A stretch of DNA of 64,000 bases. Origin: Acidobacteria bacterium 13_1_20CM_3_53_8 (GTDB lineage: Bacteria; Acidobacteriota; Blastocatellia; Pyrinomonadales; Pyrinomonadaceae). The stretch's first letter is position 1, and each line of letters begins with the position of its first letter. Shown in pieces: positions 26,729 to 57,933 of this stretch. The notes beneath the pieces are model-generated. The model had not been told where the DNA came from. It made no database searches and saw only the letters and a list, made by a program, of their open reading frames with translations. The stretch spans positions 38,941 to 102,940 of the forward strand of contig MNJR01000144.1 of NCBI GenBank assembly GCA_001920415.1, written 5' to 3'. The position numbers were made by a program, and so were the translations under genes.

Positions 26729-27769
26729 ATGCCGAGAGTTAAAGCAGCAATCATAGGAACCGGATTAATAGCGGGGAAGAAACATATTCCGGCTTTTCTG
26801 AAGCACAAAAGCAAAGTCGAATTGGCCGCGCTCTGCGATTTGAATCAAGCGGCCGCGCAGAAGGTTGCGAGCAAGTTCGGAATACCGCGAACCTACTCCG
26901 ACATAGGCGAGATGATCGAGCAGGAAAAGCCAGACATCGTTGACATCTGCACGCCGCCGCAGACTCACGTGAAGCTCGCTATAGAGGCTATGAAGCGTGG
27001 CTGCAACGTTTTTATAGAAAAGCCTATGGCGCTTACTGTAGAAGAGTGCGACCGTATCGTTGACGCTTCGCGCTCGGCGGGCGTGAAGGTGTGCGCAGGC
27101 CACAGCGATCTCTTCTACTATCCGTTCATGGAAGCTCGTGAGATGGTCGCGCGCGGCGCAATTGGTGAGTTTCGCGGGATGCGAATCTTTCTTTCGACGC
27201 CTACGAACTACATGACCTCGCAAGAAAATCACTGGGCGCACAAGTTGCCCGGCGGCGTAATTGGCGAAACAGGCCCACACATTGTTTACATGACGCTGGC
27301 TTTCATCAATCCTGTAAGGCGCGTGAGCGTTGATGCCATGAAGATTCTTGATTATCCTTGGTCGCGTTATGACGACTATCGTATAAATCTGATTGGAGAC
27401 AAGGCTATAAGCTCCGTGACCCTCTCTTATACTACGGATCAATGGGCTGCGCGTTTGGATATTTTGGGGAGCAAAGGTATTCTCACACTCGATCTTGAAG
27501 GCATGTATCTAATCAACAATCGCCGTCCGACCTTAAAGCCAGTGCCCGTCGCGCTCTCTCTCTTGAGCGAATCAGGTCAAATAGTTCAGAATCTTCTATC
27601 GAAGAGCATGAAGGTGGCTACGGGACGCTACGACAACACACACGACATTCTGATTGAGCGCTTCGTTGACGCCGTAGCGAACGGGACGGAATCGCCCGTG
27701 TCGGCGGAAGAGGGAAGGGAAGCAGTCAGGGTTTTGAATATGATCGTAAAGAGTCTGGAGTCAGACTGA
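26729..27769 (+). CDS. Gfo/Idh/MocA-family oxidoreductase
   Basis: NAD(P)-dependent sugar dehydrogenase or keto-reductase. The N-terminal Rossmann fold starts with AAIIGTGLIAGKKHIPAFL (about 6-24), followed by DIVDICTPPQTHVKLAIEAM (about 70-89) and the signature NVFIEKPMALTVEECDRIV with the EKP motif (about 92-110). The C-terminal domain includes GGVIGETGPHIVYMTLAF. At 346 aa it is typical. In polysaccharide clusters this family oxidises or reduces nucleotide-sugar intermediates. The last codons of the gene form the left end of a palindromic element that runs through the following gap. Confidence 0.9.
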   Translation: MPRVKAAIIGTGLIAGKKHIPAFLKHKSKVELAALCDLNQAAAQKVASKFGIPRTYSDIGEMIEQEKPDIVDICTPPQTHVKLAIEAMKRGCNVFIEKPMALTVEECDRIVDASRSAGVKVCAGHSDLFYYPFMEAREMVARGAIGEFRGMRIFLSTPTNYMTSQENHWAHKLPGGVIGETGPHIVYMTLAFINPVRRVSVDAMKILDYPWSRYDDYRINLIGDKAISSVTLSYTTDQWAARLDILGSKGILTLDLEGMYLINNRRPTLKPVPVALSLLSESGQIVQNLLSKSMKVATGRYDNTHDILIERFVDAVANGTESPVSAEEGREAVRVLNMIVKSLESD

Positions 27770-27877
27770 TTTTCGATTTTAGATTTGCGATTTTCGATTT
27801 AAGAGCTTTTCTGTTTCTTCCAATCGAAAATCCAAAATCCAAAATCGAAAATCCATTTGGCTCCAGACTCCAGACTC
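27751..27877. repeat. palindromic heptamer-repeat element (TTTTcGA and CTCCAGA words)
   Basis: Two nested inverted repeats fill the gap before the carbamoyltransferase gene. The outer pair is a 12-base perfect match between 27751-27762, which lies in the last codons of the oxidoreductase gene, and 27866-27877. The inner pair is 27769-27799 with 27822-27852: 31 bases with three mismatches and a 22-base loop. The inner arms are tandem 7-base units (TTTTCGA, TTTTAGA, TTTGCGA, TTTTCGA; on the right AATCGAA, AATCCAA, AATCCAA, AATCGAA). The outer right arm is also heptameric (CTCCAGA twice). It ends five bases before the next ATG. Confidence 0.85.
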
Positions 27878-33090: not shown

Positions 33091-33215
33091 TCTTAGCGAG
33101 CTTAAGTATTTCCCTTTGCGCCTTTGCGTGAACCCTCAATTATCTTGACTCTTAAGATTAACGAGAGTTGCATGTTCACGCAAAGGCGCAAAGATAAGAG
33201 ATAAGCTCGCTAAGA
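33091..33215. repeat. nested palindromic element (cctttgcg octamer words)
   Basis: An outer pair of perfect 14-base arms (33091-33104 with 33202-33215) encloses a perfect 20-base pair (33114-33133 with 33174-33193). The inner arm contains a tandem 8-base unit, CCTTTGCG twice, mirrored as CGCAAAGG. The loop of 40 bases has further short self-complementarity. The element fills most of the gap between the two epimerase genes. It belongs with the heptamer palindromes by architecture but uses an 8-base unit. Confidence 0.8.
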
Positions 33216-39260: not shown

Positions 39261-41201
39261 ATGAAGCAGGAAAGATTAAGGCGAGTTTATAGCGCTCTTT
39301 TGGTCATCACGATAATCTGTCAGGGCGGGCTTGCGCTGGCTCTTCAGGACATACGTGGCGGCACGGGTCGAGATATAGTCGGGGGGGCGAGCGCGTTTCA
39401 GGCTCAGGACATAATTGGCGGGGCGGCCATAGCATTCCAAAATCCAGTGCGCCGAAGAGACCTGGTTGGCGGCGCACGCTCGCTCATTGTTAAGCGTGTG
39501 AAGCGGCCAACTCCGACCACGGAAGTTGCTCGCTCGAATCGTACTGCGGCGGGGCATGGGAATCGTCCTGCCGCCAATGAATCCGAATCAAGCAGGACTA
39601 GACCTACAGCGGAAACTGAGACTGCCGAGGATTACAACATAAAGGGGAATGCTCTGTACGAGCAGGGTCACTACGCAGACGCAATCGCCGCATACAAAAA
39701 AGCTATCGCGCTAAAGCCATCGGACGCGCTCGCTTATAACAATCTGGGCGCAGCCTATTTCAGCTCCGTTCAATACCCGGAGGCGATTGATGCTTTCCAG
39801 CACGCTATCAAACTTGATCCAAACGATGCGGACTCGCACTTCAACTTGGGCAACGCGTTTATGAGTTTGGAGCGTTATGAAGATGCCGTTGCTGCGTTTC
39901 AGCAGGCTTTGAAGTTAAAGCCGGATTGGGCCGAAGCGGAAGAGAGCCTGGGCGATGCGTTTTTGGGACAAAGCCATTTCGAGGATGCAGGCCGCGCATA
40001 TGAAGCGACCGTGCGCTTGAAACCAAACGCGCCTGAAGTCTTCAATAAGCTGGGATATGTTTACGAACGACTGGGCAGGTTTGCAGATGCCGTCAATGCT
40101 CTGAAAAGGGTTGCGGGCTTACAGCAATCGGACGCAATCGTTTACAACAATCTTGGCGCAGCGCTCTATAAGTCAGCACAGTACAGTGAGGCTGTCGAAG
40201 CTTTCAAAAAATCGCTCGAACTCAAACCTGACAGCGCAGAGACCGAGAACAATCTCGGTGCTGCGTATTACAGCCTCAACCAGTTTGCAGAGAGCGCGGA
40301 GGCTTTCAAAAAGGCCATACAGTTAAGAAACGATCTAGCCGACGCGCATTACAATCTGGGAAACGCCAGCTACATGCTGGGCCAATACGATCAATCTGTA
40401 GCGTCCTACAGGGAAGCGATACGGCTGAAACCCGATTCTGCGGACGCGCACAATAATCTTGGCACGGCTCTTAACAACCTGGGTCGCTACGACGAAGCCT
40501 TAGCCGCGTTCAAACAGTCATTGCAACTCAACCCGGGTAACGCTGCTGTTTACAACAACCTCGCTTTCGCATACGACCGTCTCAATCGTCAGCCTGAAGC
40601 TGTGGACGCATACCGCGAAGCCATAAGGCTCAAGCCCGATTACGCTAAGGCTTACAATAATCTGGGCTACCTGCTAGACAAGATTGGAAAGTACGCAGAG
40701 GCTGTTGATGCGTTGAGAGAGGCTTTAAGAATCAACCCGGAATACGTTCACGCACACTACAATCTGGGCAAAGCTTATTACGATCTCAACAGGTTCGCTG
40801 AAGCCATAGCCGAATTCAAAGAGGCCATAAGATTGAGGCAGGATTACGAGCCTGCTTACGTTAATCTAGGCGCGGCCTTCTTCCGCGCAGGGCAGTTTCA
40901 AGACGCAGTGGCGGCCTTTAAGCAGGCTGTCGCATTGAAGCCGGACGACGCCGAAGCCTACAACAATCTGGGCAATTCTTACTATAAGACTCAAGCCTAC
41001 AACGAGGCCCTTGACGCCTACAAGCATGCTGTTCAGATAAAGCCCGGCTATGCAGAGGCGTATTACAATCTGGGCGTGGCCTATTTGACTGTAGGAAACC
41101 GAGATGCCGCCATGACCGAATACAACGCCTTGAAGCCTATAAATGCGGAGATGGCAGATAAGCTATTGACGTTGATTAACAGGACAAGGCAGAGACGATA
41201 A
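39261..41201 (+). CDS. secreted TPR-repeat protein with N-terminal DIxGG motifs
   Basis: A 646-residue protein with a signal peptide (about 1-28, ending ALA). Directly after it are four copies of a short motif, D-[IL]-x-GG, at about residues 30, 38, 50 and 67, three as DIVGGA, DIIGGA and DLVGGA. A low-complexity linker follows. From about 122 to the end there are some 15 tandem TPR units of 34 residues (consensus AxAYNNLGxAYxxxGxYxEAxxAFKxAIxLKPD). TPR arrays in this setting usually scaffold assembly or export proteins in the periplasm. The DIxGG cluster is not one I recognise. The stop codon abuts a palindromic element. Confidence 0.88.
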   Translation: MKQERLRRVYSALLVITIICQGGLALALQDIRGGTGRDIVGGASAFQAQDIIGGAAIAFQNPVRRRDLVGGARSLIVKRVKRPTPTTEVARSNRTAAGHGNRPAANESESSRTRPTAETETAEDYNIKGNALYEQGHYADAIAAYKKAIALKPSDALAYNNLGAAYFSSVQYPEAIDAFQHAIKLDPNDADSHFNLGNAFMSLERYEDAVAAFQQALKLKPDWAEAEESLGDAFLGQSHFEDAGRAYEATVRLKPNAPEVFNKLGYVYERLGRFADAVNALKRVAGLQQSDAIVYNNLGAALYKSAQYSEAVEAFKKSLELKPDSAETENNLGAAYYSLNQFAESAEAFKKAIQLRNDLADAHYNLGNASYMLGQYDQSVASYREAIRLKPDSADAHNNLGTALNNLGRYDEALAAFKQSLQLNPGNAAVYNNLAFAYDRLNRQPEAVDAYREAIRLKPDYAKAYNNLGYLLDKIGKYAEAVDALREALRINPEYVHAHYNLGKAYYDLNRFAEAIAEFKEAIRLRQDYEPAYVNLGAAFFRAGQFQDAVAAFKQAVALKPDDAEAYNNLGNSYYKTQAYNEALDAYKHAVQIKPGYAEAYYNLGVAYLTVGNRDAAMTEYNALKPINAEMADKLLTLINRTRQRR

Positions 41202-41321
41202 GAAGGTAAAAGTAAAAAGGTAAAAGGTAAAAGGGATAAGGACGAAAGCAATTTTTAATTTATAATTCACGCCGCAGGCGTGCCTACACTTTTGCCTTTT
41301 ACCTTTTTACTTTTACCTTCT
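41201..41321. repeat. palindromic heptamer-repeat element (AGGTAAA words)
   Basis: Perfect 27-base inverted arms (41201-41227 with 41295-41321) extend inward by six more pairs, one of them G-T, to 33 bases. The left arm is tandem 7-base units (AGGTAAA, AGTAAAA, AGGTAAA, AGGTAAA); the right arm mirrors them (TTTTGCC, TTTTACC, TTTTTAC, TTTTACC). Inside the loop is a small hairpin CACGCC/GGCGTG (41269-41283). The left arm starts on the last base of the TPR gene stop codon, so the element begins exactly where coding ends. Confidence 0.87.
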
Positions 41322-41369
41322 TCAAAGGCTGGTGACCAAAAAACTAGCCATTTCGTTAATGGAAAATTA

Positions 41370-50082: not shown

Positions 50083-53000
50083 TTGATGTCATCAAGAAAC
50101 CGAATCATTCCGCTTCGTATCAGAACTAGCATGGCCGTGCTGGTCACACTGACAATCGCAGTCGTGATTTACTTTTCGGCGTCGCCTCTGTCAGTCCAAA
50201 GCGCTGGGAACCCTAGCGTTGTCATTAACAAATATTTCAACTCCGGCACGACAGCCGATGTGGTTGAGTTGCTCGTCATTCAAGACGGTCTGGATATGCG
50301 AGGAATGATAATAAAAGATTTTTCCAGCAGCATGGCAAACGATGGCGGCGGGAAATATCAATTTTCCACAGATGCTTTGTGGAGCAGCGTTCGATCTGGA
50401 ACACTCATCGTTCTCAGGAATGATAATAGTGCGGCGGATACAACCGTCGGCGGTGGGGATTATAACTTAGATTTGGGCTTGCAAAATGCTGCGTACTTTT
50501 CCTCCCTAGGAGGAACTTTCGACATTGCGACCACAGAAATGGTTATGATTAAGACGGCTGGAAGCGGTGATGCAGGAGTAACTGGAAGCATTCATGCTCT
50601 GGCGGGCGGGACAGCAGGCGCACAATTCACCGCCGCTGCCGCTCCTAAACTGATCGCATCAGGCACATCACCCGGCGGTCAATTCGTGTTTGCCAACAAC
50701 AGCACTCAAAGCATTAATGACTTCGACGGAACAGATGCTACCGGAAATGCTACCGGATTAACTTTCGGCGCCGGCAATAACGCGAATAACACTGCATACA
50801 TCAATTCGCTCAGAAACCAAGGCGGCATAACTATCTCAATCAACGACGTGACGAAAGCCGAGGGCAACGCGGGTACGACTACCTTTAGCTTTGTCGTTAG
50901 CCTGTCATCACCAGCGCAGGCCGGGGGCGTGACGTTCGATATAGCCACGCAAGACAACACAGCCACCATAGCCGATAACGATTACGTGTTGCGTAGTTTG
51001 ACGGGTCAAACAATTCCACAAGGCAGCAGCAGCTATAACTTCGATGTCACAGTCAATGGCGATACCACCACAGAGCCAAACGAGATATTCTTCGTTAACA
51101 TCTCGAACATAGTCGGCGCGAATGCTGGCGACACTCAAGGGCAGGGAACTATAAACAATGACGACGTTACGCTCGTCGGCATATGCCAGATTCAAGGATC
51201 GGGAACGACCTCCCCATTCGCAGGACAAAACATAACGACAAGCGGCGTAGTCACAGGCTTCAAGTCCGGGTCGTCTGGCGGCTTCTACATACAGGACGAC
51301 GCTTGCGACACAGACTCCGCCACATCAAACGGCATCTTCGTCTTCACTGGAGGAACTTTCCCGGCAGCAGCCGTCATAGGCAACAGCGTGCTTGTCCAAG
51401 GCACTGTGCAGGAGTTCATCCCTTCGGCGGACACGCACCAGAAGCCTCTGACCGAGATAAGCAGCAGCCCTACAACTACGTTGCTAACAACTGGGAATAC
51501 ACTCCCTGCGCCCGTCACTATAACCGCTTCCGACACGCAGGCGGCAGGTCTGGAAAATCTGGAGCGCTTAGAGGGCATGCGCGTTCAAGTAGGCTCGCTC
51601 ACGGTGGTTGGCCCAACTCAGGGCAGCATTACTGAGTCAAGCGCTACGGTCTCCTCTACAGGTGTCTTCTTCGGCGTCGTTACAGGAATGGCGCGCCCCT
51701 TCCGAGAGGCTGGCATCAGCATCAGCGACCCGCTCCCTTCGGGCGCGCCCGCCAATGTCCCGCGCTTTGACGAGAATCCAGAAAGGATTCGCGTTGATAG
51801 CGACGCGCAACCGGGTACGACCGCGCTGGACGTGGCCGCAGGCACTGTAATAACGAATCTCATAGGCGAGATGGACTACTCCTTCCGCGCATGGACTATC
51901 TTGCCGGAGGCAGCCAGCCCGCCTACGGTCGGCTCACAGCCCGGCTCAACGCCTGCGCCCGTGCCTAACGCCAACGAACTGACAATCGCCTCCTTCAACA
52001 TGGAGCGCTTCTTCGACACTACAAACGACCCGAATAATCCGAACGACCCTGTGCTGACGGCTACAGCCTTCAACAAGAGACTCAGTAAAGCATCGCAGAT
52101 AATACGCAACGTGCAGAAGCTGCCGGACGTTATAGGCGTAGAGGAGATGGAGAACCTCTCTACCTTGCAGGCCGTTGCGGCGCAGGTCAACAGCGATGTA
52201 GTGAACATTGACGGCGGCTCGAATCCTAACTACCATGCCTACTTAGTCGAGGGCAATGACATAGGCGGCATTGACGTTGGTTTCTTGGTCAAGGAATCGC
52301 GCGTTACGACCATCAACGTTACGCAGATTGAACTGGCTGGTTGCGATCACGTTACAGCCTCGACTTGCTATAATTACACTGACCCGAATACTGGCGCGCT
52401 CGATATACTCAACGACCGCCCGCCGCTTGTTCTGCAAGCATCAATACCCAGTCAGGCCGGGGGAACCTTCGCCTTCATCGTTATCGTTAATCATACGCGC
52501 TCGCTGAGTGGCATTGATGACAACACTGCGGCTGGAGCAGGGACGGTTGGAGCGCGTGTTCGTGAGAAGCGACGCAAGCAGGCAGAGTTCCTTGCTAACT
52601 ACATTCAGAATCGGCAGACGGCAGACCCTACAGAAAAGATTATCACGGTCGGCGACCTAAACGCTTTTCGGGTTAACGACGGCTACGTTGACGTGATAGG
52701 GACTATCCTGGGAACGCCTGCGCCGCCAGATCAAGTTGTGCTTGCCTCTTCAGACCTTGTCAACCCAAACTTAACAGACCTGTTGGATACGCTTCCGGCC
52801 ACCGAGCAATATTCTTACAATTTCGACGGCAATGCGCAGACGCTTGACCACATCATCGTTAACCGGCGTGCGTTCGTCTTCGTTGACCGCTTTGCCTACG
52901 CACGCAACGATTCAGATTTTCCGGTTAAGAACTACGAGAGCACGAACGAGTTGCGCCTCTCTGACCACGACCAGCCTGTAGCCTACTTCAATTTAGCAAT

Positions 53001-54021
53001 CCCACCAACGGCTGCTCCTGTGAGTTTGAGCGGGCGCGTAGTATCAAATGATGGCGTGCCGCTCTCAGGCGTCGTCATGCGGCTTGAAGGTTCACAAGCT
53101 CACGCGACAATCACAGATTCTAATGGGCATTACAGTTTCAACGCCATAGAACCCGGCGAGTTCTACAGTCTTACGCCGTCTCGCGCAAACTTCAGCTTCG
53201 ACCCGCCCGTTCGCACGTTCAATCTGGTGGGGAGCCGTACGGACGCAGTGTTTACTGCAAAAGTAGAAGCCGAGACAATGAATCCGCTTGATACGCCGGA
53301 ATATTTCGTGCGGCAACAGTACCTTGATTTTTTAGGGAGAGAGCCGGACGAAGGAGGACTCTATTTCTGGACAGCTAAGATTAAGGCGTGCAGCGCAGAC
53401 CCAGTGTGCATACGCAACGAGCGCATAAACATCTCTGCTGCATTCTTCATGAGTGATGAGTTTCAGGAAAGCGGCTTCTACGTTTACCGTCTATCTAAAG
53501 CCGCGCTGGGTGGTTTACCAGATTACGAACGATTCATGCAGTACAGCCGCCGTATGGCTACAGGCAGCGAAACCGAATTGAGCAGAGAAGCTTTTGCAGA
53601 AAGTTTCGTCCAGCAACCTGAGTTCATACAAAGATACCCGCAAGCGCTCGGCGGGAGGGCATTCGTTGATGCGCTGCTTCAGTCCGTGCAGGTGAACTCA
53701 GGAATTGATTTGAGCTTACAGAGAAGCGCCCTGATTGACGATTTCAACGCTCAAGGAAGCCGCGCGCGCACGCTTCGCCTTGTTGCTGAGAATAGCTCTT
53801 TCGTCAATGCCGAATACAACCGCGCATTCGTGTTGATGGAATATTTTGGATACCTGCGCCGTAATCCTGATAGCGCAGGCTACGATTTCTGGCTAAACGT
53901 TCTGAACGACCGTGTGCCCGGAAACTATCGCGGAATGGTCTGCGCGTTCCTTAGCTCCGTCGAGTACCAGCGCAGGTTCGGCTCTATCGTCTCGCACTCT
54001 AATGGCGAATGCAGTCAGTAG
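50083..54021 (+). CDS. secreted multidomain endonuclease/exonuclease/phosphatase protein with DUF4214
   Basis: A 1312-residue secreted protein. An N-terminal signal sequence (about 17-40) is followed by a region I cannot name, though it resembles lamin-tail-type domains. A Calx-beta domain follows (about 245-365, ending TINNDD). A beta-rich region (about 368-620) precedes an EEP domain (about 625-968) with all expected catalytic motifs: SFNMERFF, GVEEMEN, VNHTRS, GDLNAF and SDHDQPV. A carboxypeptidase-regulatory-like fold covers about 975-1062 (LSGRVVSNDGVPLSGVVMRL) and DUF4214 repeats the last 250 residues (FVRQQYLDFLGREPDEGGL). An extracellular nuclease or phosphodiesterase is likely. The C-terminal module is shared with the gene at 54.8 kb. 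Confidence 0.88.
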   Translation: MMSSRNRIIPLRIRTSMAVLVTLTIAVVIYFSASPLSVQSAGNPSVVINKYFNSGTTADVVELLVIQDGLDMRGMIIKDFSSSMANDGGGKYQFSTDALWSSVRSGTLIVLRNDNSAADTTVGGGDYNLDLGLQNAAYFSSLGGTFDIATTEMVMIKTAGSGDAGVTGSIHALAGGTAGAQFTAAAAPKLIASGTSPGGQFVFANNSTQSINDFDGTDATGNATGLTFGAGNNANNTAYINSLRNQGGITISINDVTKAEGNAGTTTFSFVVSLSSPAQAGGVTFDIATQDNTATIADNDYVLRSLTGQTIPQGSSSYNFDVTVNGDTTTEPNEIFFVNISNIVGANAGDTQGQGTINNDDVTLVGICQIQGSGTTSPFAGQNITTSGVVTGFKSGSSGGFYIQDDACDTDSATSNGIFVFTGGTFPAAAVIGNSVLVQGTVQEFIPSADTHQKPLTEISSSPTTTLLTTGNTLPAPVTITASDTQAAGLENLERLEGMRVQVGSLTVVGPTQGSITESSATVSSTGVFFGVVTGMARPFREAGISISDPLPSGAPANVPRFDENPERIRVDSDAQPGTTALDVAAGTVITNLIGEMDYSFRAWTILPEAASPPTVGSQPGSTPAPVPNANELTIASFNMERFFDTTNDPNNPNDPVLTATAFNKRLSKASQIIRNVQKLPDVIGVEEMENLSTLQAVAAQVNSDVVNIDGGSNPNYHAYLVEGNDIGGIDVGFLVKESRVTTINVTQIELAGCDHVTASTCYNYTDPNTGALDILNDRPPLVLQASIPSQAGGTFAFIVIVNHTRSLSGIDDNTAAGAGTVGARVREKRRKQAEFLANYIQNRQTADPTEKIITVGDLNAFRVNDGYVDVIGTILGTPAPPDQVVLASSDLVNPNLTDLLDTLPATEQYSYNFDGNAQTLDHIIVNRRAFVFVDRFAYARNDSDFPVKNYESTNELRLSDHDQPVAYFNLAIPPTAAPVSLSGRVVSNDGVPLSGVVMRLEGSQAHATITDSNGHYSFNAIEPGEFYSLTPSRANFSFDPPVRTFNLVGSRTDAVFTAKVEAETMNPLDTPEYFVRQQYLDFLGREPDEGGLYFWTAKIKACSADPVCIRNERINISAAFFMSDEFQESGFYVYRLSKAALGGLPDYERFMQYSRRMATGSETELSREAFAESFVQQPEFIQRYPQALGGRAFVDALLQSVQVNSGIDLSLQRSALIDDFNAQGSRARTLRLVAENSSFVNAEYNRAFVLMEYFGYLRRNPDSAGYDFWLNVLNDRVPGNYRGMVCAFLSSVEYQRRFGSIVSHSNGECSQ

Positions 54022-54140
54022 CCGTGAACGGTACGAAGCTTAGATCGAATCCATAGATCCAACTTCCGATTCCGAGCGAGAGGGGATGGGTTTTTGAAGA
54101 AAGGCAACTCGTCTCCTCTTACGTCCGATAACGCCAGTGA

Positions 54141-54165
54141 GTTACTGATGTTACGCATCAGTAAC
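54141..54165. repeat. 10 bp hairpin in the 54.0-54.8 kb gap
   Basis: GTTACTGATG pairs perfectly with CATCAGTAAC around a 5-base loop, followed by TTTGTT. It is the first of four structured elements in a 762-base gap that has no gene. It could end the transcript of the upstream gene. Confidence 0.6.
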
Positions 54166-54174
54166 TTTGTTAAA

Positions 54175-54393
54175 GCCACAGACGAAGCCGAAGGTATAGT
54201 CTGGGGTTACTCATCACATACCAAGAGAGTCTGCGTGAGCAGACGGCAGATGTTTATGCTCTAGGCGGCTATCTTTCATCTCGCGCCTCTGCCGTGCGGC
54301 TCACGCAGACTCCATCTATCTTCTCAATCTATACCCCAGACTACGCCTGCGGCTTCGTCTGTGGCTACACTCTAATCGTCTGCTTGCGCAGAC
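54175..54393. repeat. long nested inverted repeat in the 54.0-54.8 kb gap
   Basis: Outer arms 54175-54207 and 54333-54365 pair over 33 bases with three mismatches or wobbles; the first 16 pairs are perfect. About 20 unpaired bases on each side separate them from inner arms (54227-54240 with 54299-54312, 14 perfect pairs, continued by 54243-54250 with 54288-54295). The inner left arm can instead fold on itself as GTCTGC-GTGA-GCAGAC, a GNRA-loop hairpin, and a near copy (GTCTGC-TTGC-GCAGAC, 54378-54393) follows. The whole could be a structured RNA, a cruciform-forming DNA element or a remnant of a small non-autonomous mobile element. Confidence 0.75.
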
Positions 54394-54467
54394 TCGTTGA
54401 GCGCTTTCTTTCAGACATTTCAACTGCGTATCATGAGTAAGTAAATTATCGAGGCAAGGACAATCCA

Positions 54468-54511
54468 ATGCGGGAGGTGGAAGAGTAAACCTTTCATCTC
54501 CCGCATCTTTT
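54468..54511 (+). terminator. candidate terminator in the 54.0-54.8 kb gap
   Basis: ATGCGGGAG pairs perfectly with CTCCCGCAT (9 bp, 21-base loop), followed by CTTTTCTG. It is well downstream of the nuclease gene stop but before the next gene. From here to 54783 no further gene is seen; TTCCATTTT (54697) mirrors AAAATGGAA, which overlaps the next ribosome binding site region. Confidence 0.4.
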
Positions 54512-54783
54512 CTGTATCTTCGTTCAGCAGTCGAACCTGCGATTCAAATATTGTGAAAGCAAGGCAGACGTAGAAAGGATTGATGAATTGACGAATTCTC
54601 AGCGCACGCAATGAAATTAACTTGAATGAATCTTCTGCTTAGGCTTAGAATGTCAAAAACAGATTGGCTTTGATTATGGAAGAGCGTTAAGGCTTTTTCC
54701 ATTTTTGAGTTTAATCTCTTGCGGACTTGTCCTGCACCCTCAGGCAAGTGATTGTACAAATTTGAAAATGGAAGGAGTCTGTC

Positions 54784-57700
54784 GTGCTCAGACTAATCAC
54801 CCTCAGACTATCTTTAGCAGGATATCGCCGTCTATTCACCGCTCTTCCTATCTTAATTACCTTTGTAATTCTGTTATGGCAGGGGCATCATCTATTTACT
54901 TCACCTGTGAAAGCGTCTGCATTCACACCAGGCAACGTAGTCATCTACCGTGTGGGTACTGGAGCATCAAGCCTTATTGGCAGCAATGCCCCTGCTCAAG
55001 TGTTTCTGGACGAATACACAACGGGCGGGACATTTGTACAATCCATTCCGATGCCGACTGCCGTGAGCGGATCAAACAAGATACTTACAGCAACAGCGCA
55101 GTCATCTTCTGAGGGTGAACTGACACTTTCTACGGATGGAAGCCGTCTGGTTCTAACAGGGTACAATGCGGCTTTGGGCAGCACTACGAACCTTCCTGGC
55201 ACTTCAGGCTCAACGGTTAATCGCGTCGTTGGGTTGGTTGATTCTTCTGGCGTAATAGACACAACCACAGGATTGACTGATTTCGCCACGGGCGGCAATC
55301 CACGCAGTGCTACGAGCGATGGCGCTGGCAATCTATGGCTTGGCGGCAGTGTTGGCGGCGTCAGGTATGCTACGGTCGGCGCAACAACCTCTACGCAACT
55401 CAGCACGAACGTGACCAACGTGCGTCAGGTAAAAATCTTCGGCGGACAGTTGTACGTTTCCGATAGCTCAGGAGGTGCTATACGTCTTGGAACCGTAGGG
55501 ACTGGTACTCCAACCACGTCAGGCCAAACGATATCTAATCTGGTAGGTTTTCCTATAGTCACTAACAATCCTGTTAATAATAGTCCTTACTCCTATTACT
55601 TTGCGAAGTTAGGAGGCAGCGAGTGCCCGTTCGATACGCTTTATGTGGTGGACGACGCAAATACGAATAGCGGAACCACCGCAGGGATTCAGAAGTATTC
55701 GCAGGTCTCTGGAACATGGATTTCAAACGGCACGATTGCTGGGGACAGTATGCGCGGGCTGACCGGCGTTATTAACGGCGGGTCAAGCGTAACCCTCTAC
55801 GTAACTTCATGGAACTCGTCAACCGGCGCCTCTACACTCTATTCACTGACTGACGCCTCCGGGTACAACGCACCGATAACTGGCAGCTTGACTACGCTGG
55901 CGACTGCGGCAACGAATACGGCTTTCCGTGGCGTAGCCTTTGCGCCTTCAAACGCGGCTCCAAGCCCGACACCGTTCTGCACGCCTACAGCAACTCCTAC
56001 GCCTACCAGCACATGTCCGAATCCGAGTCCTGCGCCGATTGGATGCGGCACTGAGCGCTGGTCTGTAAAGACCGGGACAGATGCGGATAGAAATTTAGTA
56101 AATCTAAACTCGGCCACGCCCACTACGATTGCCGCGTTGTCAGCCATGCCTTCTCCGAATCCGACGCCACCGAATAACCGCGTCGCGCCTGCGGAAACTA
56201 CGCAGTGGATCGTTCATGGCACGATTACTCAATACAAGCTGGAGGATGATTCCGACTACCACGTAGTATTTCGTGACGGCAGTAATACTATGGTGACGGA
56301 AATTCCGTATCCGGGAAGCTCGCCTCAGTGCGTGCAGTTGACAAGTCCGTTCCTGCCTGGCATAGCCAGCGCGCGATGCAAGTTTGATGGCATGTTCCTG
56401 GTAACTACATCATTTAAGACAACCACTACGGTGGCGCGAATTAAGGGAGTTGGGATGTTTGACTTCCCGCACGGGCAGACGGGCGCAGCCCCAAATCAGA
56501 TCGAACTTCATCCCATTCTGGATGTAACCTTCCTTGCGCCTGCGAATGGAACGACGAACGCAGGCACGAACACGCAGACGCAAGCAGGAGAAGTCACGCT
56601 ACTCTTCAGTAATGTCTCAAGCGGTGGCACGACCACAGTCACTCCTATTGAACCGAGTTCGGCAGGAACTGCTCCGTCTGGCTATACGCTTGTAGGCCCT
56701 GCCGACAACATCACAACTACAGCGAGTGTGTCCGGCCCAATCACCGTCTGCTTCAGCGTACCGTACATCACAGACTATGCATCCTTCTCTAAACTGAAAG
56801 TGCTGCATAGTGTGGGCGGGAATCTCGTAGATATTACGACGGGGCAGAACGTAGGGAGCGGAGTGGTATGCGGCAATGAGCCGAGCGGCTCGCTCTCTCC
56901 TTTCGTCGTCGCAATTGGGAATACACCAACAGCCGCACCTGCTGCGCTTACAGGAAGAGTGACGAACTCGGAAGGTGACCCCTTGGGAGGCGTGCTGGTC
57001 AACTTAGGCGGCTCTAAGACTGCAAGGGCTATCACGGATAGCGAGGGCATGTACTCGTTCACTGGCGTTGAGACTGGCGGCTTTTACGTGGTGACGCCTG
57101 AGATGGCTAACTACAGATTCAGCCCTGCGACTCGCGCCATATCACTTCTGGGCAATAGGGCAGATGCATCTTTCACAGCCCTTGAGACGAGCCAGACGAC
57201 CAATCCTCTCGAAACGCCTGAGTTTTTCGTGCGGCAGCAATACCTTGATTTCTTAGGTCGTGAGCCGGATCAGGGCGGATTGGATTACTGGAGCGATCAG
57301 CTACGCGCTTGCGGCCAGGATGAGGCGTGCATGAGACAAAGGCGTATAGATGTGTCTGCGGCATTCTTCATGGAGGAAGAGCCACAGGACACGGGCTTCT
57401 TCGTCTACAGAGTCTTCCGCGCTGCATTCGGCCAGAAGCCCGGCTATTCGGAGTTTAATAGTGACCGAAGCCAGATGGTTACAGGGGCTTATAGGAGCGT
57501 GAACAAGTCAATCTTTGTGAGTAATTTCGTCAAGCGCGCGGATTTTAAGACAAAGTATCCAGACACGCTTACAAACGCTGAGTTCGTAGGCAGGCTCTAC
57601 AACTCTGCTGGTCTAAACTTCTCCATAGCGGATCAACAAGACGCTATACGGGAGATGGAGCAAGGCGCTACAAGGGCTGACATAATCAAGGAGTTGATCG

Positions 57701-57933
57701 AGAAGCCTGCGTTCATGCAGAGAGAGTACAACCCTGCGTTCGTACTGATGCAATACTTCGGTTACCTCAGACGTGACCCGGACGAGGGAGGATATGGCTT
57801 CTGGCTGGATGTCTTGAATAACCGTATTCAGGGTAACTACCGCGCTATGGTCTGCGCCTTCATCAGTAGCGCTGAATACCAACAGAGATTCAGCCCCGTG
57901 AGGACGCGCACGGACACGGCATGCGGGCAGTGA
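54784..57933 (+). CDS. secreted beta-propeller-like protein with regulatory-like domain and DUF4214
   Basis: A 1049-residue secreted protein. After a signal or anchor helix (about 18-35) comes a region with GNVVIYRVGTGASSLIGSNAPAQVFLDEY that resembles bacterial beta-propeller proteins of this type (about 48-390). A Pro/Thr-rich linker is at about 396-420, and an unassigned middle covers 420-715. The carboxypeptidase-regulatory-like domain (LTGRVTNSEGDPLGGVLVNL, about 721-805) and DUF4214 (FVRQQYLDFLGREPDQGGL, about 810-1045) are clearly paralogous to those of the 50.1 kb gene. The GTG start has a GGAAGGAG ribosome binding site seven bases upstream. Function is unknown; the shared C-terminus suggests a common surface-anchoring or assembly role. 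Confidence 0.85.
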   Translation: MLRLITLRLSLAGYRRLFTALPILITFVILLWQGHHLFTSPVKASAFTPGNVVIYRVGTGASSLIGSNAPAQVFLDEYTTGGTFVQSIPMPTAVSGSNKILTATAQSSSEGELTLSTDGSRLVLTGYNAALGSTTNLPGTSGSTVNRVVGLVDSSGVIDTTTGLTDFATGGNPRSATSDGAGNLWLGGSVGGVRYATVGATTSTQLSTNVTNVRQVKIFGGQLYVSDSSGGAIRLGTVGTGTPTTSGQTISNLVGFPIVTNNPVNNSPYSYYFAKLGGSECPFDTLYVVDDANTNSGTTAGIQKYSQVSGTWISNGTIAGDSMRGLTGVINGGSSVTLYVTSWNSSTGASTLYSLTDASGYNAPITGSLTTLATAATNTAFRGVAFAPSNAAPSPTPFCTPTATPTPTSTCPNPSPAPIGCGTERWSVKTGTDADRNLVNLNSATPTTIAALSAMPSPNPTPPNNRVAPAETTQWIVHGTITQYKLEDDSDYHVVFRDGSNTMVTEIPYPGSSPQCVQLTSPFLPGIASARCKFDGMFLVTTSFKTTTTVARIKGVGMFDFPHGQTGAAPNQIELHPILDVTFLAPANGTTNAGTNTQTQAGEVTLLFSNVSSGGTTTVTPIEPSSAGTAPSGYTLVGPADNITTTASVSGPITVCFSVPYITDYASFSKLKVLHSVGGNLVDITTGQNVGSGVVCGNEPSGSLSPFVVAIGNTPTAAPAALTGRVTNSEGDPLGGVLVNLGGSKTARAITDSEGMYSFTGVETGGFYVVTPEMANYRFSPATRAISLLGNRADASFTALETSQTTNPLETPEFFVRQQYLDFLGREPDQGGLDYWSDQLRACGQDEACMRQRRIDVSAAFFMEEEPQDTGFFVYRVFRAAFGQKPGYSEFNSDRSQMVTGAYRSVNKSIFVSNFVKRADFKTKYPDTLTNAEFVGRLYNSAGLNFSIADQQDAIREMEQGATRADIIKELIEKPAFMQREYNPAFVLMQYFGYLRRDPDEGGYGFWLDVLNNRIQGNYRAMVCAFISSAEYQQRFSPVRTRTDTACGQ

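Follow-up and report, generated by a model that had tools for sequence, protein, structure and literature searches.

TIRtrons, or TIRYTs, consist of Y1 genes placed within long, partly self-complementary inverted repeats and accompanied by dispersed repeat families, among which the partial text of Di Nocera et al. 2013 (PMC3733652) sets apart a distinct acidobacterial group. Members of the IS200/IS605 family, in the partial text of PMC2817692, have neither terminal inverted repeats (TIRs) nor larger target duplications. Subclass 1.2 of TnpA(Y1), as characterised in the excerpted text of PMC6006769, comprises low-copy proteins of about 148 aa with the motifs DH[IV]H, WQ and Y---Q--HH, distributed mostly in Cyanobacteria and Bacteroidetes, and that text lists no REP sequences for them. 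Here we describe an intergenic region in a 64,000-nucleotide stretch of an acidobacterial contig (the window), in which we find what is very probably a non-autonomous foldback transposon (MITE) with an interior derived from a Y1 unit, dispersed by way of its outer TIRs.

Anatomy of the gap between two DUF4214 genes

The gap measures 762 bases and separates the ORFs 50083-54021 and 54784-57933, both of which encode large proteins with a carboxypeptidase-regulatory-like domain and a DUF4214 C-terminus; the first additionally carries endonuclease/exonuclease and Calx-beta domains. An earlier note, made from the letters of the window, had described four structures in this gap, and repeat search and folding recovered all of them. 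The first three, however, turned out to be parts of a single element of 293 bp (54145..54437, plus strand), while the fourth lies outside it. The extent of this element follows from an alignment of 40 genomic copies and from TIR-based boundaries; full-length copies of the family measure 328-337 bp, compared to the 293 bp of the window copy.

The element begins with the left terminal inverted repeat CTGATGTTACGCA (54145..54157, plus strand), which continues as TCAGTAACTTTG to form a small terminal hairpin, and it ends with the right terminal inverted repeat TGCGTATCATGAG (54425..54437, minus strand), for which the family consensus reads TGCGTAACATSAG. The first of the four structures, a 10-bp hairpin GTTACTGATG-TTA-CGCATCAGTAAC at 54141-54165, is composite, its first four bases being flank and the remainder the left end of the element. 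Left flank TGAGTTA (54138..54144) and right flank TAAGTAA (54438..54444) match at five of seven positions and form a decayed 7-bp target-site duplication.

Inside, two modules of three hairpins each face one another in inverted orientation (A-B-C/C'-B'-A'). In the window copy, a deletion of about 41 nt at 54170..54172 (plus strand) has taken away the left hairpin A (GAGCCTGC-NNNN-GCAGGC), which the alignment shows to be kept in other copies. The deletion site is followed by B (54174..54207, plus strand), with a foot that reads TAAAGC here and often GTAGC in other copies, and by C, GAGTCTGC-GTGA-GCAGACGGCAGATG (54227..54252, plus strand). The centre (54247..54290, minus strand) can be aligned in many copies to the last nine or so codons (DEKYLWTT-stop) of the Y1 gene L075, introduced below, and is rearranged in the window copy. 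On the other side lie C' (54288..54312, minus strand) and B' (54333..54366, minus strand), the inverted partners of C and B, and finally A', CGTCTGC-TTGC-GCAGACTC (54377..54395, minus strand), within which the hairpin GTCTGC-TTGC-GCAGAC occupies about 54378-54394. Since the target duplication has decayed and left hairpin A has been lost, the window copy is old.

The inverted-repeat search bore out the arms of the large nested repeat: the outer pair (54174-54207/54333-54366) measures 34 nt and is 91% complementary, and the inner pair (54227-54240/54299-54312) has 14 nt, is 100% complementary, and is followed by GGCAGA/TCTGCC. The fourth structure (54468..54506, plus strand), previously a terminator-like stem of 9 bp, is indeed present but stronger, with 16 pairs and a 7-nt loop, then a T-rich tail, CTTTTCT. 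It does not belong to the family, because family matches end at query positions 315-329 (329 corresponding to 54448), and it is a candidate for an ordinary intrinsic terminator of the upstream gene. Other long inverted repeats within the window are located at 27751-27870, 33114-33193 and 41200-41322.

A dispersed family with terminal repeats and target duplications

A search of the element's own genome with 54120-54520 returned 111 matches, which resolve into about 40 distinct places, and the copy number of the window family is at least 40 (40 scored of 63 candidates, hence a lower bound). In the copy alignment, full copies start with CTGATGTTACGCA and finish with TGCGTAACATSAG, i.e. with 13-bp terminal inverted repeats; CTSATGTTACGCA is found at both ends of 41 elements, with no more than three mismatches in all. 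Their flanks form matching 7-bp pairs (at most one mismatch) in 21 of 41 elements, compared to a mean of 3.5 and a maximum of 9 after shuffling, and matching 8-bp pairs in five (shuffled mean 0.6, maximum 3), with TTAAGAG (L014), CTTTTTA (L023) and TTTCTTAA (L019) as examples of the duplicated sequence. None of the 41 is contained in an ORF of 150 aa or more. A foldback mobile remnant had been among the readings proposed from the letters alone, together with a genome search in which many copies with target-site duplications would point to a mobile element; this is the outcome we obtained, and the copies, their terminal inverted repeats and their target-site duplications confirm that reading.

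Directly 5' of hairpin B, many of the family's arms carry GTAG, as do several relatives; in the window copy, the left arm has TAAAG. The central piece is oriented one way relative to the outer ends in 24 copies and the other way in 12 (copies in L009-L045), which suggests inversion of the stem-loop by recombination between the arms. The 202-bp element at L056:1889-2090 has terminal repeats that match perfectly and lies in a 7-bp duplication, but is devoid of the Y1 hairpin modules; it is possibly a simpler relative of the outer element, and a look for DDE remnants in it yielded short ORFs only.

The window family is absent from all 59 relatives searched, and the 21-mer of its left end occurs in none of the other genomes among 396 of the phylum. 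An exact scan for this end across 84,980 species genomes, however, detected it in an Anaerolineae metagenome-assembled genome (L079, MNXJ01000057), which holds about 110 such ends. Five of ten complete elements examined there have duplications of 7 or 8 bp (no more than one mismatch); the two inspected in sequence contain GTAG-tagged hairpins with a sequence unlike that of the window family. The ORFs at four Anaerolineae loci with these TIRs include no transposase, and the one Y1 match of that genome, a domain within a larger fusion protein, has no such arms. Many contigs of this assembly (L080-L099) terminate about 160-270 bp from a terminal repeat; probably, the MITE breaks the assembly. At L141:238-1902, a regulator-like protein of 554 aa terminates in a Y1-like domain that lacks the HUH motif and may represent a domesticated transposase. 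Two further resemblances were discarded: the left-end 21-mer occurs once in a Deltaproteobacteria contig (L078), where it lacks a partner end and is compatible with chance, and the similarity of the left end to an integron-borne plasmid sequence is at chance level (E = 2). No viral contig searched contains the left end.

Y1 genes within inverted hairpin arms

Four matches to IS200-type (Y1) transposase genes were obtained in the window's genome. One of these, L075, shares its contig with the window and encodes a complete protein of 147 aa with intact DHVH (HUH) and YVRNQEEHH (catalytic Tyr) motifs, which matches Pfam Y1_Tnp (E 1.4e-25), the NCBIfam IS200/IS605 transposase and solved TnpA relatives. 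The inverted-repeat search found the gene enclosed by arms nested in the order of the element (1289-1333/1935-1979, 1340-1368/1903-1931 and 1365-1400/1870-1905). Nearly all copies of the window family align to these arms, with best E values between roughly 1e-20 and 1e-41; about 19 of the alignments extend beyond the stop codon into the 3' end of the gene. With the final 90 nt of this gene as query, 12 copies matched, 11 of them from the same base; singly, these matches to the gene end are short and weak (best E 0.018). As the same modules flank the intact L075 gene, the MITE is a hairpin-gene-hairpin unit that has lost most of its gene. The outer TIRs of the L075 unit are degenerate, and it has no target duplication.

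A second subfamily, of about 260 bp and at least 40 copies (40 scored of 100 candidates), has the same outer repeats as the window family. It aligns to the arms of a different Y1 gene, L076, including the right terminal repeat CGCGTAGCATGAG; the L076 unit shows one TIR only. In the L076 gene (1411-1859, minus strand), GQVH replaces DHVH, and derivatives are abundant; because this replacement affects the HUH motif, the protein may be inactive. In the protein tree, L076 clusters with genes from other genomes in a clade supported at 100/99, and L075 falls into a different, five-row group, a placement that is moderately supported (91/88). On account of these different groups, two unrelated Y1 units reside inside the same outer repeats. 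Given the degenerate TIRs of L075 and the single TIR of L076, the link between Y1 genes and outer repeats draws mainly on the derivative copies.

Inverted arms surround Y1 genes elsewhere in the class, too. The set tested comprised 35 Y1 genes, namely 30 loci that the L075 protein retrieved as query in this genome and in relatives, and five others, with the L075 gene counted twice (as L111 and L075); inverted arms flank 26 of these 35 within 350 bp, compared to 0/150 random window positions and 0/25 displaced positions (0/175 controls in all). By inspection, many of the arms are made up of three small hairpins, the middle one often preceded by GTAGC or a variant of it, while the hairpin sequences are entirely different from one Y1 gene to the next; the related units in other genomes lack the family TIR. 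The motif Y...Q..H is present in 31 of 32 Y1 proteins, and most of these genes resemble subclass 1.2, assigned here by motif and not by the profiles of PMC6006769.

Origin, spread and relation to known systems

From comparison of sequences, we have shown that the feature belongs to a repeat family with terminal repeats and target duplications, and that its arms originate from a Y1 unit. In the mechanism that we envisage, a Y1 enzyme would recognise and cut the A, B and C hairpins as single-stranded DNA, like TnpA(IS200) and TnpA(REP); such action on single-stranded hairpins would explain why the arms are complementary both to themselves and to their partners. A DDE-type transposase, active in trans and absent from the assembly, most likely dispersed the present copies through their outer repeats, as dispersal used the outer repeats and left duplications typical of staggered cuts. 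Since two unrelated Y1 hairpin units share these repeats, a short TIR element would have acquired Y1 hairpin modules on two or more occasions and then spread them. We found no DDE-family transposase gene between these TIRs in this assembly: the eight matches to DDE_Tnp_1 (PF01609) are not flanked by them, and none of the fetched places with a single TIR end proved to be a longer element, the ORFs at L049, L060, L061 and L065 being host genes. The genome is a draft of 155 contigs, so the autonomous element could be missing from it. In the openly accessible literature searched, no transposon paper quotes the TIR. Tentatively, and with somewhat more doubt than confidence, we extend this to a chimera of two transposases, in which a DDE-type TIR element common to this organism and the Anaerolineae genome repeatedly captures three-hairpin modules of HUH/Y1 type; the resulting foldback MITEs may be substrates for both Y1 and DDE enzymes, and the orphan subclass 1.2 would gain its cognate hairpin repeats.

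One can ask whether a Y1 transposase alone could make and spread the unit, the outer repeats simply being its ends. Families of this kind, with Y1 genes in long inverted repeats and dimeric TIR repeats, are known, Acidobacteria included, from the partial text of PMC3733652, and the arms of L076 themselves reach into the TIR. Yet target duplications of 7-8 bp are unexpected of Y1 enzymes, to judge from the partial text of PMC2817692, one TIR is common to two unrelated Y1 lineages, and related Y1 units elsewhere do without it, so that we regard spread by a Y1 enzyme alone as unlikely.

Much less probable still is a structured RNA that regulates by switching folds and is confined to this gap; the earlier note had considered a structured RNA with alternative folds. 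The appeal of this reading lies in the extreme folding energy (z = -12.6 against shuffles for RNA of 54130-54520, -12.3 for the other strand); however, any foldback DNA is expected to give the same, and the element alone, folded as DNA, has z = -9.9. Nor does the choice between local and long-range partners call for an explanation by RNA, since the geometry of an inverted hairpin pair always allows it to fold locally or across the loop. The GNRA loop proposed for the local fold is not conserved, TTTA, GTCA, GATA or GACA occurring at that place in other copies. There is no Rfam match at gathering or lenient thresholds and no single gene context, the at least 40 dispersed copies having no tie to DUF4214 genes. 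The suggested covariation analysis gave little among the family copies, with a single strongly covarying pair (T-A/C-G, in hairpin A); as the stems are nearly invariant within the family, covariation argues neither way, and the conservation of hairpins across Y1 genes with unrelated flanks is the better sign of function. As for the idea that the element marks the duplication which produced the two DUF4214 genes, the flanking proteins do have related C-termini (48% identical across the final 338 aa), but the same element sits at dozens of unrelated intergenic places and no direct repeat spans the gap, leaving this proposal with hardly any credibility.

With the foldback MITE as the preferred reading, a riboswitch-like gap becomes a readable piece of mobile DNA, and HUH/Y1 proteins resembling subclass 1.2, a group that is poorly understood, are linked to a consistent inverted surround of three hairpins and to high-copy derivatives. 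If it is true that both types of enzyme act on one element, this would constitute an unusual spreading route for short hairpin repeats.

Among known systems, classical bacterial MITEs such as NEMIS, Nezha and ERIC are likewise short, non-coding, intergenic and foldback, with TIRs and target duplications, but the interior here comes from a Y1 unit, and no autonomous partner with these TIRs was found in the assembly. Insertion sequences of the IS200/IS605 type differ by the TIRs and 7-8 bp duplications that are present here. With subclass 1.2, L075 shares its length of about 147 aa, the motifs DH[IV]H, WQ and Y---Q--HH and the low copy number, whereas the genes here are enclosed by hairpin arms and accompanied by dispersed derivatives. 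REPINs and the REPtrons of RAYTs, in the partial texts of PMC2817692 and PMC3116915, likewise have an inverted hairpin pair around a low-copy Y1 gene and gene-less inverted doublets dispersed between genes, and many arms of the family add to the likeness by a GTAG foot at hairpin B; here, however, there are three hairpins instead of one REP per side, in units of about 330 bp, with an outer TIR and 7-8 bp duplications that those texts do not report, and RAYT class 2 has a Y..NP motif in contrast to YVRNQEEHH (Y...Q) of L075. The nearest description of the L075-type unit, as far as the partial text of PMC3733652 extends, is that of the TIRtrons or TIRYTs, which also place a Y1 HUH gene inside long inverted repeats and disperse gene-less inverted copies; here, by contrast, each arm has three hairpins, and there is an additional outer TIR of 13 bp with 7-8 bp duplications, ends of a kind which that text does not describe.
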